A DNA stretch of 64,000 nucleotides from Geosiphon pyriformis (Eukaryota > Glomeromycota > Glomeromycetes > Archaeosporales > Geosiphonaceae): the NCBI GenBank assembly GCA_016748015.1, contig JAAOMT010000664.1, positions 1,364,756 through 1,428,755 on the forward strand, in the 5' to 3' direction. The notes under the pieces are model-generated. The model made no database searches. It was not told where the DNA came from and saw only the letters and a program-made list of their open reading frames with translations. Shown piece after piece: positions 7,934 through 64,000 of the stretch (its first letter is position 1; each line of letters opens with the position of its first letter). A program made the position numbers and the translations under genes.

Positions 7934-9435
7934 ATGTCACCCCAACAATACTTTCACGCTTTATCCAATGATTTTGGAAATTTATTTGACAGTCAGAAAT
8001 TCTCTGATATTAGAATTATAGTTGGCGAAGCTCCAAATATTAGAACCTTTCATGCTCATTCCCAAATTTTAGCAGCAAGATCACCATATTTTGCTGTAGC
8101 ACTCTCTAGCAATTGGATTAAAAGGGAAAATAATATCATTATCTTCCCTAAACCTAATATTTCACCAAAGATTTTCGAAATAATTCTCAGGTAAGGTTTT
8201 TATTTGCTTCAAAGTAATTTTGCCAACATGAAATTCACTGATTTTATTTCCTGAACAGATATATTTATAATGGCGAGATTTCTCTTGATAAACATGGAGT
8301 ACCTACTATTTTAGAATTGCTTGTTACCGCTGACGAGCTTATTCTAGAAAACATAATTGATCACCTTGAAGACTATTTGATTGAACACCGTGCAAAAGAG
8401 CTAAAGGAAAATTTTGCCACTTTGCAAAAAACTTCATTTTTGCATGATTCTTTCAAGAAGTTACAAGTATTCTGCACCGAAATAGCTGCTAACAATCCAG
8501 CCATAGTTTTCGATTCGCAAGATTTTACCTCTCTTAGTGAAAAGGCTCTTGTCTCAATTTTAACCCAGGATGATCTAAATATAGAAGAATCTGAAATATG
8601 GGAAAAGATTGTAGAATGGGGAATTGCTAAATTAGATAACAATATTCAGACGAAAAAAGTTCCTTACTGGACAGATGAAAACTTTAACGCCTTTAAGGAA
8701 TCCATCGAAAGGCTTCTACCTTTAATCCGCTTCTTTAACATATCTTCAGTTGACTTCTATCACAAAGTAAAACCATTTGCGAGAATTTTACCTGGAACTT
8801 TATATGAAGATCTTTTACATCATTATCTCGTACCGGGTAGTCATCAAAAATCTGTAGACGCTCAGCCATTACGTTTTTCCCGATTAAATATTGATTCAAA
8901 TCTTCTTCGATCATATAATATAAAACAGCTTGATCATTGGATTCAAGGCAAAAACAAAAATACTCCTTTTGAAAGCAAACTTGGAAATGATTTTAAATTG
9001 TTACTTCGAGGCAGTCGAGACGGATTTACTCCAGCCGATTTTCATCGATTATGCGATGATAAAGGAGCAACAATTAGCGTAATCAAAGTGAAAGGAACTG
9101 GTCAGATAATTGGCGGCTTTAACCCACAATCTTGGCACTCTCGAGGTGAATTTTTAAATGGAGAAAGAAGTTTTATTTTTTCTCTTGGAGATGACAATGC
9201 TGAAAATGCTATACTTAGCAAATTTGTTACAGGATATGGACCTTATGGTGGAAAAGATTTGGGACCCTATTTTGGAAATCTCAATATGAGTTTGAGTGGC
9301 GACTTTAAAAATAGTTCAGGGTGCTATTGTCAAAAGACAATTAATTATGAGCATGCTTTAATGCCTGGGTCAGAAAATCAAGAGATGAATTTTTCTGTCG
9401 AGGAGTATGAAGTTTTTCAAATTATAAAAAGATAA
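7934..9435 (+). CDS. BTB-BACK-TLDc protein, copy 1 (intact, 2 exons)
   Basis: Exons 7934-8190 and 8259-9435 with a 68-base GTAAG...CAG intron give 477 residues. An N-terminal BTB/POZ domain covers roughly residues 10-125 (SDIRIIVGE, FHAHSQILAARSPYF), a BACK-like helical region follows (about 130-240, containing WEKIVEWGIAKLD and LIRFFNISSVDFY), then a linker and a C-terminal TLDc domain from about 320 to the end (LLLRGSRDGFTPADFHRLCD, GTGQIIGGFNP, SFIFSLGDD, NFSVEEYEVFQ). BTB-BACK proteins usually act as substrate adaptors of cullin-3 ubiquitin ligases; TLDc domains occur in oxidation-resistance and V-ATPase-interacting proteins. Target and localisation are not visible from sequence; there is no signal peptide or membrane segment. 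This is the only ungapped copy in the window and serves as the reference for the others. Confidence 0.9.
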
Positions 9436-11129: not shown

Positions 11130-11345
11130 CGCAGTCTGTTAAAAAAACTTTATTTAATAGAAAATTATTTTATTTTTATTTTTATTTTTGAAAACTTTTA
11201 CTCTTTTCGAGTCTCTTTATTAAATATTTATTCAAAGTATTTTCTTTATATCATTGCAAAGTAAAAAGTAAAATACCATCTAAAATTTATAATTTTAATT
11301 AGAGGAGAAACACAAATATCCATTTAAAAGTTATATTTCTAATGC
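11130..11345 (-). repeat. Relic of the BTB-TLDc 3' flank (inverted relative to copy 1)
   Basis: From about 11150 (AATAGAAAATTATTTTATTT) through TTTTACTCTTTTCGAGTC to GGAGAAACA and TTCTAATGC, the sequence follows 35340-35515 and 63035-63205, in the same orientation as those copies. It then stops being similar before any coding part would begin. It looks like a truncated fifth copy of the family unit, more diverged than the others. Confidence 0.6.
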
Positions 11346-17228: not shown

Positions 17229-17729
17229 TTAAGTATTCGTCAAGAAAGGTAAGAGAGACTTAAGAAAATTTAAACTTTGTTGATATAAACCTGGATTCAG
17301 AGATTCTCGTGGACCGGCTATGTTAAGTACGTTTATGTTGTTACTTTTTACCCATTCAATTATGGAATCAAAATCCTGTTGTTTTGAAAGGTCAATAATT
17401 AAATAAGGCATTCTCTTCTCTTGGACTTCTTTAATGGTTAAATTGGTTCCACCGGTAATTGCCTCAGGTGAAGGTATATTAGGAAGAAGAATTAATGTCC
17501 CATCAGAATCTTTTACGTTTAGTTTTGTCCTTTCGCTAAAATTGCTACTAGTTGTTTCATTTAATGAATATTTCTCAGGAATGCTAGTGCCTAATTCTGC
17601 TAAGCGACCCTTAGGGCACCATCCTCCATGCGGGATTTTTAATTCGATCGCAGCATCTAAGGCTGCACGATCTACTCCCGTTTGTCCGCCTGAAACAACC
17701 TTTTCAATCATCGAAGGCTTGATTTCCAA
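17229..17729 (-). CDS. Putative molybdenum cofactor carrier (YpsA-like, bacterial type)
   Basis: A single uninterrupted frame of 166 codons. Motifs in order: SGGQTGVD (13-20), GGWCPKGR (35-42), a conserved SERTKLNVKDSDGTLIL stretch (65-81), GGT (93-95) and LNIAGPRES (135-143). These mark the 'putative molybdenum carrier' family of the YpsA/SLOG Rossmann-like fold, which binds nucleotide-type ligands or molybdenum cofactor. Full length for the family, with every recognised motif present. It has no intron, unlike its neighbours in this window, and the family is best known from bacteria, so ancient transfer from a bacterium is likely but not proven. The start was set at the first ATG; M7 would also leave the domain intact. 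Whether it handles molybdenum cofactor in the fungus is unknown. Confidence 0.88.
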   Translation of the reverse strand: MEIKPSMIEKVVSGGQTGVDRAALDAAIELKIPHGGWCPKGRLAELGTSIPEKYSLNETTSSNFSERTKLNVKDSDGTLILLPNIPSPEAITGGTNLTIKEVQEKRMPYLIIDLSKQQDFDSIIEWVKSNNINVLNIAGPRESLNPGLYQQSLNFLKSLLPFLTNT

Positions 17730-23825: not shown

Positions 23826-25144
23826 TTATCTTTTTATAATTTGAAAAACTTCATACTCCTCGACAGAAAAATTCAAATGTTGATATTCTAATCCAGGCAT
23901 TATAGCATGCTCATAATTTGTTGTATTTCGACAATAGCACCCTGAACTATTTTTAAAATCTTTGCCACTCAAAATCATATTGCGATCTCCAAAAAAGGGT
24001 CCATAATTTGGCCCATCAAAAGGTCCATATCCTGTAACAAATTTGCTAAGTATAGCATTTTCAGCATTGTCATCTCCAAGAGAAAAAATAAAACTTCTTT
24101 CTCCATTTAAAAATTCACCTCGAGAGTGCCAAGATTGTGGGTTAAAGCCGCCAATTATCTGACCAGTTCCTTTCACTTTGATTACGCTAATTGTTGCTCC
24201 TTTATCATCGCATAATCGATGGAAATCGGCTGGAGTAAATCCGTCTCGACTGCCTCGAAGTAACAATTTAAAATCATTTCCAAGTTTGCTTTCAAAAGGA
24301 GTATTTTTGTTTTTGCCTTGAATCCAATGATTAAGCTGTTTTATATTATGTGATTGAAGAAGCTTTGAATCAACATTTGATCGTAATGGCTGAGCGTCTA
24401 CAGATTTTTGATGACTACCCGGTACGAGATAATGATGTAAAAGATCTTCATATAAAGTTCCAGGTAAAATTCTCGCAAATGGTTTTACTTTGTGATAGAA
24501 GTCAACTGAAGATATGTGAAAGAAGCGGATTAAAGGTAGAAGCCTTTCGATGGATTCCTTAAAGGCGTTAAAGTTTTCATCTGTCCAGTAAGGAACTTTT
24601 TTCGTCTGAATATTGTTATCTAATTTAGCAATTCCCCATTCTACAATCTTTTCCCATATTTCAGATTCTTCTATATTTAGATCATCCTGGGTTAAAATTG
24701 AGACAAGAGCCTTTTCACTAAGAGAGGTAAAATCTTGCGAATCGAAAACTATGGCTGGATTGTTAGCAGCTATTTCGGTGCAGAATACTTGTAACTTCTT
24801 GAAAGAATCATGCNNNNNNNNNNNNNNNNNNNNNNNNNNNNNNNNNNNNNNNNNNNNNNNNNNNNNNNNNNNNNNNNNNNNNNNNNNNNNNNNNNNNNNN
24901 NNAAAATCTTTGGTGAAATATTAGGTTTAGGGAAGATAATGATATTATTTTCCCTTTTAATCCAATTGCTAGAGAGTGCTACAGCAAAATATGGTGATCT
25001 TGCTGCTAAAATTTGGGAATGAGCATGAAAGGTTCTAATATTTGGCGCTTCGCCAACTATAATTCTAATATCAGAGAATTTCTGACTGTCAAATAAATTT
25101 CCAAAATCATTGGATAAAGCGTGAAAGTATTGTTGGGGTGACAT
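23826..25144 (-). CDS. BTB-BACK-TLDc protein, copy 2 (assembly gap inside)
   Basis: Exon 1 starts at the ATG 25144-25142 and matches copy 1 down to the gap at 24902; exon 2 runs from 24813 to the TAA at 23826. From 24812 to 23826 the frame is open with no stop, so the coding part outside the gap is intact. Missing are the end of exon 1, the intron and the first ~60 codons of exon 2. Relative to copy 1, the BTB and BACK parts are almost unchanged. The linker is four codons shorter in net terms (SNVDSKLLQSHNIKQLNHWI), and the TLDc loops differ: GPFDGPNYGPFFGDRNMILS against GPYGGKDLGPYFGNLNMSLS. Unlike copies 1, 3 and 4, similarity ends within about 10 bases after the stop codon, so the 3' flank was not duplicated with it. 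Role as for copy 1: probable ubiquitin-ligase adaptor. Confidence 0.85.
24814..24902. other. Assembly gap (89 N), undersized
   Basis: In copy 1 the sequence between the two gap edges is about 265 bases long, so the 89 Ns do not reflect true distance, and frame across the gap cannot be trusted. Confidence 0.9.
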
Positions 25145-35752: not shown

Positions 35753-36827
35753 TTATCTTTTTATAATTTGAAAAACTTCATACTCCTCGACAGAGAAATT
35801 CATATGTTGATTTTCTGACCCAGGCATTATAGCATGCTCATAACTAATTGTCTTTTGACAAGTGCACGCTGAACTATTTTTAAAATCATTGCCACTCAAT
35901 CTAATATCCCATCCAAAATAGGGTCCCCAAACTGTTCCACCATAAGGTCCACATCCTGTAACAAATTTGCTAAGTATAGCATTTTCAGCATTGTCATCTC
36001 CAAGAGAAAAAATAAAACTTCCTTTTCCATCTAGCCACTGATCCCGAGAGTGCCAAGATTGTGGGTTAAAGCCGCCAATTATCTGACCAGTTCCTTTCAC
36101 TTTGATTACGCTAATTGTTGCTCCTTTATCATCGCATAATCGATGGAAATCAGCTGGAGTAAATCCGTCTCGACTGCCTCGAAGTAACAATTTAAAATCA
36201 TTTCCAAGTTTGCTTTCAAAAGGAGTATTTTTGTTTTTGCCTTGAAACCAATGATCAAGCTGCTTTATATTATGTAACTTAAGAAGCTTTGAACCAGTTG
36301 ATCGGAATGGCTGAGCGTCTACAGATTTTTGATGACTACCCGGTACGAGATAATGATGTAAAAGATCTTCATATAAAGTTCCAGGTAAAATTCTCGCAAA
36401 TGGTTTGACTTTGTGATAGAAGTCAACTGAAGATATGTGAAAGAAGCGGATTAAAGGTAGAAGCCTTTCGATGGATTCCTTAAAGGCGTTTAAGTTTTCA
36501 TCTGTCCAGTAAGGAACTTTTTTCGTCTGAATATTGTTATCTAATTTAGCAATTCCCCATTCTACAATCTTTTCCCATATTTCAGATTCTTCTATATTTA
36601 GATCATCCTGGGTTAAAATTGAGACAAGAGCCTTTTCACTAAGAGAGGTAAAATCTTGCGAATCGAAAACTATGGCTGGATTGTTAGCAGCTATTTCGGT
36701 GCAGAATTTTTNNNNNNNNNNNNNNNNNNNNTTCGCCAACTATAATTCTAATATCAGAGAATTTCTGACTGTCAAATAAATTTCCAAAATCATTGGATAA
36801 AGCGTGAAAGTATTGTTGGGGTGACAT
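35753..36827 (-). CDS. BTB-BACK-TLDc protein, copy 3 (assembly gap inside)
   Basis: The ATG lies at 36827-36825. Exon 1 is present for 32 codons (to IIVGE), then 20 Ns, then exon 2 from FCTEIAANNP to the TAA at 35753. The BACK part is nearly identical to copy 1, with His for Asn in LIRFFHISS. The linker (SKLLKLHNIKQLDHWF) and three TLDc loops differ: SRDQWLDGKGSF against SRGEFLNGERSF, GPYGGTVWGPYFGWDIRLS against GPYGGKDLGPYFGNLNMSLS, and SSACTCQKTISY against SSGCYCQKTINY. About 440 bases of copy 1 (rest of BTB, intron, start of exon 2) correspond to the 20-N gap, and the bases at the gap edge (AAAAATTC) do not match copy 1. It is therefore uncertain whether the gene is intact. 3' flank and promoter are shared with copy 1. 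Confidence 0.8.
36712..36731. other. Assembly gap (20 N), undersized
   Basis: The two edges are about 440 bases apart in copy 1. The gap falls in the same part of the gene as the gap in copy 2, which suggests collapse of near-identical reads, or alternatively a real deletion wrongly bridged. Confidence 0.85.
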
Positions 36828-42612: not shown

Positions 42613-43817
42613 TTACACATCGTGGAATACGACAAACCTTCCCACATTGCGATTAATAAAATCGGTCATTTCTGGTGCAATAGATTCGCATTCAATAACT
42701 TGAAATTCCTCCATCTTTCCAAAATTCGCATCCAAAACCGGTTCAAGAGCTGTCAATGTTAGATTCTTGCATTGAAGAAATGCCAATGATTCCAAGTTCC
42801 GACATTGAGCTATTATTGTCATAGGGGGACAATCCTTGAAATCAACATGTGAAAAGGTGAGATGAGTGACATTTTCAGACTTATTTAGAAGGCCATCGAT
42901 AATAGTATTAATGTTGCCACGAAAATTCCGAAGTGATAGACGTGAAATACGTTTAAGCTGAGCGATTGATGTGCCCAGGTATTCATGATTGTCAGCTCTA
43001 GCTAGGAAAAACCATAATTCTGGAAGGATTTCCAAGCTTTTCTAGATGAATTTTGTATTGAGAGATGAAATTATTTTAGTTTTGAAGTGGAACCTGAATC
43101 ATAAAATTTGTATGAGAAATAAAATAAATTTTATCCACTTACCAAGCATAAATCACTGGTAGGCAATATATCAAACAAAACAGGCCTTTTTAAAAAAGGT
43201 GAACAATCCAATCGACACCAATTAACTCCACTAAAGAACTCTCGAAATTCTGGATTCTCAGCCAAAAAATTACAAAACCCTCCATTCGTATGTGACGTAT
43301 AATCGCCGCTTAATTGCGTTATTTTTGCACCACGAGCCATCATCGCCATTAACACAGCTTTGAAAACATTCGACATTGGTTGTGAAAAATCAGGGTCATT
43401 ATCTCTACACCATCTAGTGATAATTCGATGCATTTTGGTATAATCCAAATGTCGAACAAAATGAGGATAATCAAAAGTCAACGAAGCAGAATTTCTTGGG
43501 CGTTGAACAACTTTCGTCCAGAAACTTCGGCCCCAAAATTCACGTGGTAAAAGGAGACGACGTTCACTATCACTCAAGAAAGCGAGAAAGATTGTGATGA
43601 CTTTGTGATGACGATGACAAATCGCTGCAAATGGACGCTCCCATAAAATTGGCGCAGTAACTTTGCACCATTGTTTGCAAACTAACACACAATTGTAAAG
43701 GTTTTTTGTGTGAAATTGGGAATTGGAAGTTGGTGAGAGATGATTTATAATTTTTTGAAGAATCTCGGGTGGAAGAGCTTCTACCGTTCCTATTGTAGTG
43801 CCAATCAATTCAGCCAT
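42613..43817 (-). CDS. F-box protein with degenerate leucine-rich repeats (2 exons)
   Basis: Exon 1 is 43817-43143 and exon 2 is 43041-42613, with a 101-base GTAAGT...TAG intron; the product is 367 residues. An F-box covers about residues 13-62 (EALPPEILQKIINHLSP, then CVLVCKQWCKVTAPILWERPF). The C-terminal third has LRR-like strands (LKRISRLSLRNF, VTHLTFSHVDF, LESLAFLQCKNLTLTALEP). Such proteins typically recruit substrates to SCF (Skp1-cullin1) ubiquitin ligases. F-box genes of this layout form a very large family in Rhizophagus. The substrate is unknown. No signal peptide or membrane segment is seen. Both exons are open and the splice sites are canonical, so the gene looks functional. Confidence 0.87.
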
Positions 43818-63444: not shown

Positions 63445-64000
63445 TTATCTTTTTATAATTTGAAAAACTTCATACTCCTCGACAGAAAAATTCATCTGTC
63501 GATTTTCTGACCCAGGCATTATAGCATGCTTATAATTAATTGTCTTTTGACAATAGCACCATGAACTATTTTTAAAGTCGCCACTCAAACTCATATTGAG
63601 ATTTCCAAAATAGGGTCCCAAATCTTTTCCACCATAAGGTCCATATCCTGTAACAAATTTGCTAAGTATAGCATTTTCAGCATTGTCATCTCCAAGAGAA
63701 AAAATAAAACTTCCTTCTCCATCTAGCCGCTGATTCTGAGAGTGCCAAGATTGTGGGTTAAAGCCGCCAATTATCTGACCAGTTCCTTTCACTTTGATTA
63801 CGCTAATTGTTGCTCCTTTATCATCGCATAATCGATGGAAATCGGCTGGAGTAAATCCGTCTCGACTGCCTCGAAGTAACAATTTAAAATCATTTCCAAG
63901 TTTGCTTTCAAAAGGAGTATTTTTGTTTTTGCCTTGAATCCAATGATCAAGCTGTTTTATATTATGTGATCGAAGAAGATTTGAATCAATATTTAATCGG
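63445..64000 (-). CDS. BTB-BACK-TLDc protein, copy 4 (cut by window edge)
   Basis: Only the C-terminal part is in the window: the end of the linker (RLNIDSNLLRSHNIKQLDHW) and the TLDc domain down to the TAA at 63445. The frame is open from the edge to the stop. Most of the TLDc matches copy 1, including GPYGGKDLGPYFGNLNMSLS, but the first loop is SQNQRLDGEGSF, closer to copy 3 (SRDQWLDGKGSF), and the late loop has SSWCYC and NYKHAIMPGSENRQMN. The mix of copy 1-like and copy 3-like loops suggests exchange between copies. The 5' half, BTB domain and promoter lie beyond the window. Confidence 0.85.
   Translation of the reverse strand, partial: RLNIDSNLLRSHNIKQLDHWIQGKNKNTPFESKLGNDFKLLLRGSRDGFTPADFHRLCDDKGATISVIKVKGTGQIIGGFNPQSWHSQNQRLDGEGSFIFSLGDDNAENAILSKFVTGYGPYGGKDLGPYFGNLNMSLSGDFKNSSWCYCQKTINYKHAIMPGSENRQMNFSVEEYEVFQIIKR

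Follow-up and report, generated by a model that had tools for sequence, protein, structure and literature searches.

Three variable TLDc loops on near-constant BTB-BACK proteins: a candidate recognition family in an AT-rich eukaryotic genome

Gene structure and family size

Here we describe a family of BTB-BACK-TLDc genes in a stretch of 64,000 nucleotides (the window; G + C content 24.6%) that corresponds to positions 1364756-1428755 of one contig (C355) in a 124.7-Mb AT-rich eukaryotic assembly. The gene at 7934-9435 (copy 1, + strand) encodes an intact BTB-BACK-TLDc protein of 477 amino acids in two exons. Exon 1 extends from the ATG start codon at 7934 to 8190, a single 68-bp intron (GTAAGG...AACAG) occupies 8191-8258, and exon 2 comprises 8259-9435, including the stop codon. 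The coordinates originally predicted for this gene were exact, and the presence of near-identical local paralogues was confirmed.

All features of copy 1 lie on the + strand. Pfam searches placed the BTB domain at 7973-8388 (aa 14-129, split by the intron; 73 bits, above the cut-off), followed in the expected order by a constant BACK domain at 8449-8637 (aa 150-212; 32 bits, above the cut-off). A BACK-TLDc linker with indels (8851-8931, aa 284-310) precedes most of the TLDc domain (PF07534; 8890-9423, aa 297-474), whose match (E 2.5e-14, 54 bits, cut-off 24.5) covers profile positions 3-169 of 170. Among the Pfam matches to copy 1, TLDc was the sole candidate substrate-type domain, and neither a MATH nor an F-box-linked domain was detected.

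Three further copies in the window lie on the - strand (copy 2, 23826-25144; copy 3, 35753-36827; copy 4, 63445-64000). Copy 4 is represented by its TLDc part, the gene running past the window end to contig position 1429510, where there is an N gap; a fifth copy lies 9 kb past the window end. Copies 2 and 3 contain N gaps at 24814-24902 and 36712-36731, respectively, and because the gaps of copies 2, 3 and 4 all fall in the constant part, these copies cannot be called complete.

Genome-wide, at least 149 TLD matches were found in this single assembly, which has gaps inside near-identical repeats. The closest family was represented by 75 retrieved loci, 40 of which could be modelled over their full length with an intron (63-91 bp) placed as in copy 1, so that the copies are not mostly pseudogenes; the remaining half or so were truncated, frameshifted, gap-containing or ended by a contig edge. 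One TLD match (contig C88, 10082-10498) lies inside an open frame reported as 3502 aa long, compared with the usual 400. A scan of viral contigs for relatives found none.

Several other features were recorded. About 170 bp at window positions 11174-11345 share 84% identity with the 3' flank of copy 1 and are possibly a remnant of the flank of another copy. An F-box-like protein (PF12937) is encoded near the BTB-TLDc copies at 43134-43817 (- strand). An intronless ORF of 166 aa at 17232-17729 (- strand) strongly matches the circularly permuted YpsA SLOG family (PF12694, E 3e-52), which is known mainly from bacteria, and a horizontal acquisition is possible. Elsewhere in the assembly, the only rDNA unit found by pattern search (in the region of position 1045481 of contig C320) has apparent unusual G-to-A and C-to-T changes, seen by eye, at normally conserved 18S positions, and is perhaps a degenerate or RIP-like copy. 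This unit differs at one position from each of two Glomeromycotina primer sites and at four positions from a third. Type I FAS was not found, and the control for that search gave no signal either. The organism is probably an early-diverging fungus.

Variation and selection along the gene

The variation within TLDc was predicted to cluster in three loops, and the five local copies bear this out. Loop 1 (9139-9171, aa 380-390), loop 2 (9232-9291, aa 411-430) and loop 3 (9313-9387, aa 438-462, around a conserved C-x-C) correspond by homology to the beta3-beta4 loop, the beta6-beta7 and beta7-beta8 loops, and the beta8-beta9 loop, respectively, an assignment that we made ourselves from the NCOA7-AS topology in PMC8329711. 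Variable codons made up 8 of 11 in loop 1, 14 of 20 in loop 2 and 14 of 25 in loop 3, as against 0 of 20 in the core segment 391-410; they were rare in the N-terminal part of TLDc (6 of 69, aa 311-379) and in the BACK region (3 of 127, aa 157-283), and the variable sites were not scattered over the core of the fold. In the linker, 12 of 27 codons varied, in addition to the indels. Synonymous divergence was 0.07-0.27 in the loops and 0.006 in BACK, which implies that the loop segments are older than the constant parts, these being either recent or homogenised.

The ratio of nonsynonymous to synonymous changes per site among the five copies was 0.77 in loop 1, 3.2 in loop 2, 1.4 in loop 3 and 0.88 in the linker. 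The original note stressed that nearly all base changes are amino-acid replacements; since about 79% of sites are nonsynonymous, this is close to the neutral expectation, which was clearly exceeded locally in loop 2 only.

Regional pN/pS values were obtained by tree-free Nei-Gojobori counting in two clades of 21 (clade A) and 17 genes (clade B). The constant region had values of 0.36 in clade A and 0.38 in clade B (confidence interval 0.30-0.43 for the two), which places the family outside the loops under purifying selection; pN/pS of the BTB domain in clade A was 0.27-0.34, and dN/dS of BTB and BACK was 0.2-0.34. All loops pooled had values of about 1 (1.10 and 1.02), well above the rest of the gene. 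Loop 2 reached 1.5 and 1.4, and loops 1 and 3 did not exceed 1. Independent pairs likewise gave a loop 2 ratio above 1 (P = 0.018, uncorrected for three loops), but the codon-bootstrap interval for loop 2, 0.87-2.75, spans 1. The linker, which had also been put forward as a selected region, proved to be mildly relaxed (about 0.55-0.6) and not above 1.

Codon sites were tested with our own FUBAR-style implementation. Allowing beta > alpha improved the fit in both clades, by 2ΔlnL = 59.9 (clade A, 33 sites scoring above 0.9) and 22.7 (clade B, 9 sites scoring above 0.9). Selected sites were enriched in the interval 380-463 (Fisher P = 7e-10 in clade A, where it held 21 of the 33 sites, and 4e-5 in clade B), and loop 2 showed the strongest positive selection among the loops. 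Four null simulations returned 0, 0, 1 and 14 sites above 0.9, with 2ΔlnL of at most 7.2. With trees from the loop region alone, such region-specific trees being the only way in which recombination was handled in the selection tests, the signal was kept (2ΔlnL = 44.7 and 22.0) and the sites persisted. Sites 412, 419, 426, 427, 444 and 461 were selected in clade A as well as in clade B, and a single recurrent site could carry as many as nine residue types within one clade. The one-ratio omega from our own implementation (0.54-0.80) was above the counting values, and for this reason we base regional claims on the counts and site-level claims on relative rates. As in families of the MATH-BTB type, selection was concentrated in the substrate-type domain, here TLDc, and the adaptor domains BTB and BACK were constant.

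These values bear directly on the strongest rival explanation, namely that the BTB-TLDc copies have dispensed with an ancestral V-ATPase-binding face. The loops of this face would then be drifting neutrally, and the likeness of the rest of the gene would be due to gene conversion and purifying selection. The whole-loop ratios near 1, the absence of an excess in loops 1 and 3, and the indels present in the loops are what such a relaxation of constraint predicts, and it may lie behind parts of loops 1 and 3. As an account of the whole pattern we regard it as unlikely, since beta/alpha reaches 5-25 at particular sites, many of them common to both clades and retained with region-specific trees, and since loop 2 exceeds 1 in independent pairs. 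Moreover, the loops are not free to drift, because the nearly invariant residues G421, P422, F424, G425, C441 and C443 sit between the variable ones. The evidence argues for positive selection at particular positions and not for a simple release of constraint.

A probable binding face, a putative adaptor arm and mosaic loops

In the structure of pig mEAK-7 bound to the V-ATPase, the named TLDc contacts are Gly276, His277, Pro316, Gln317, Tyr341, Thr354, Tyr367 and Lys384 (PMC9263379), and the numbering of the PDB sequence is consistent with these residues. A profile alignment of copy 1 with mEAK-7 (probability 97.8, 17% identity) mapped the contacts, in order, to copy 1 positions 341, 342, 382, 383, a gap, 413, 426 and 443. 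Loop 1 aligned with Pro316 and Gln317, loop 2 with Thr354 and Tyr367, and loop 3 with Lys384. Of the seven contacts that could be mapped, five are at most one residue away from a selected site, a proximity reached at random with a frequency of 0.0003 for the clade B sites and about 0.03 for those of clade A. Because the mEAK-7 loops contact one partner simultaneously, the three variable loops, judged from this alignment at 17% identity, probably form a single binding face. An AlphaFold model of the four TLDc sequences of the window, built on a shallow alignment, had a pLDDT of 34 and was not used. Together with the site-level selection in 380-463 in two clades, the match of the loops to the partner face of mEAK-7 supports the idea that a constant scaffold carries a diversified surface.

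The same alignment bears on a second alternative, in which the copies are V-ATPase regulators, each with loops tuned to a different isoform, state or complex of the enzyme. Every characterised TLDc protein cited here is a V-ATPase binder, and the contacts involved are the ones with which the variable loops align. V-ATPase subunits, however, are few and conserved, unlike loops that differ in nearly every copy, and the same genome has a canonical mEAK-7-like gene whose contact loops are conserved. The positions aligned with mEAK-7 contacts are mostly variable in the family, which argues, as far as aligned residues can tell, against a common V-ATPase-binding mode. We consider such a specialisation improbable, though somewhat less so than the artefact discussed below. 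A second BTB-TLDc subfamily on the contig of the window (about 1.0-1.06 Mb) varies mainly in loop 1, in both length and sequence, between constant flanks, with insertions of up to about 30 residues; in the separate cluster L083-L088 (about 0.994-1.050 Mb) this loop ranges from short to more than 30 extra residues and is Tyr/Asn-rich.

The phi-X-E motif in BTB domains marks the Cul3 interface of substrate adaptors. Residues 12-200 of copy 1 match KBTBD2 (E 8e-9), but the motif was absent from the BTB domain, the aligned position reading W-I-K or W-V-K in most copies as against L-S-E in KBTBD2. The common ubiquitin-ligase arm that had been proposed is thus not supported by this contact motif, and the receptor role proposed alongside it is putative. 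To judge from the BTB-BACK architecture, a ubiquitin arm is nevertheless plausible, although phi-X-E is absent, and BTB-BACK may dock onto a cullin ligase.

Recombination tests were positive, and neighbouring copies are mosaics in which loop 1 and loops 2/3 group differently. Loop 1 of copy 2 is exactly that of copy 1, its loop 2 is its own, and its loop 3 is close to that of copy 5; copy 4 has a loop 2 identical to that of copy 1 and a loop 1 like that of copy 5. All 9 informative sites of loop 1 group copies 1 and 2 (12|45), and those of loops 2 and 3 group copies 1 and 4 (14|25) with one exception, a site order reached in 2 of 10,000 permutations. The PHI test rejected the absence of recombination in both clades (0 of 1000). 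Loop 2 of copy 3 has no similar copy in the assembly (best 83%), and a recent import from an assembled copy was unsupported for the unusual loop 2 sequences of copies 2 and 3, for which no donor was found, the best match in the whole assembly reaching 83% over the full length. That collapsed or chimeric near-identical copies produced the mosaics is the least probable reading: copies 2, 3 and 4 do have N gaps in their constant regions, but the loops fall within a gap-free stretch of about 250 bp, separated by an identical core of only about 60-90 bp, and intact copies on many other contigs show this pattern too, as does the second clade.

A candidate recognition family and known systems

With moderate confidence, we read these genes as a diversified intracellular recognition family, in which BTB-BACK is the constant arm and TLDc the variable module for many or fast-changing targets. 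They would form a large birth-and-death family of adaptor proteins whose BTB-BACK arm probably dimerises. Recognition would fall to TLDc, in which the beta3-beta4, beta6-beta7/beta7-beta8 and beta8-beta9 loops, the ones that mEAK-7 uses for the V-ATPase, would have evolved into a diversified binding face. Variants would arise from point substitution under positive selection and from reassortment of loop segments between neighbouring copies, with the rest of the gene kept homogeneous. The likely role would be to bind many or rapidly changing protein targets; our guess is that these may stem from viruses, endobacteria or plant partners, or be fungal but non-self, and that they may be sequestered or passed to degradation.

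More tentatively, the family could be an undescribed expanded fungal recognition system, in which BTB-BACK adaptors carry a hypervariable, recombining surface derived from the face with which TLDc grips the V-ATPase. Such a system would be comparable to NLR or MATH-BTB repertoires and would be built on a fold that is not known to diversify for recognition. No description of a TLDc-based variable family was found in the literature searched. If this reading is correct, TLDc, which is known as a V-ATPase regulator and antiviral factor (NCOA7), also serves as a variable recognition scaffold. Should the organism be a fungus of the symbiotic type, as the BTB expansion hints, the residue-level map of constant part, variable face and exchange units would make testable how such fungi discriminate between self, symbiont, virus and plant.

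Parts of this arrangement are known from other systems. Rhizophagus irregularis has expanded BTB/BACK genes, likewise in high copy number and both tandem and dispersed, for which roles in perception of the environment have been proposed (PMC3886924, PMC8647823); a term search of both texts found no mention of TLD. The KLHL/KBTBD adaptors of Cul3 share the order of BTB-BACK followed by a C-terminal domain, but that domain is Kelch, whereas here it is TLDc and the Cul3 motif is absent. OXR, NCOA7, TBC1D24 and mEAK-7 share the TLDc domain, and the same loops are implicated in partner binding; these proteins are few, conserved and V-ATPase-binding, whereas here the loops are hypervariable and TLDc forms part of a large family of BTB-BACK fusions. 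The closest parallel in evolutionary pattern is with the MATH-BTB and F-box adaptors of nematodes, for which positive selection in the substrate-binding and not in the cullin-binding domains has been reported (summarised in PMC4334554, its reference 41). These are also large birth-and-death families that combine a constant BTB adaptor with a positively selected substrate-type domain, and an immune role has been suggested. The present family belongs to another lineage and differs in that its variable domain is TLDc instead of MATH or an F-box partner, BACK intervenes, BTB lacks phi-X-E, and loop segments reassort between neighbours.
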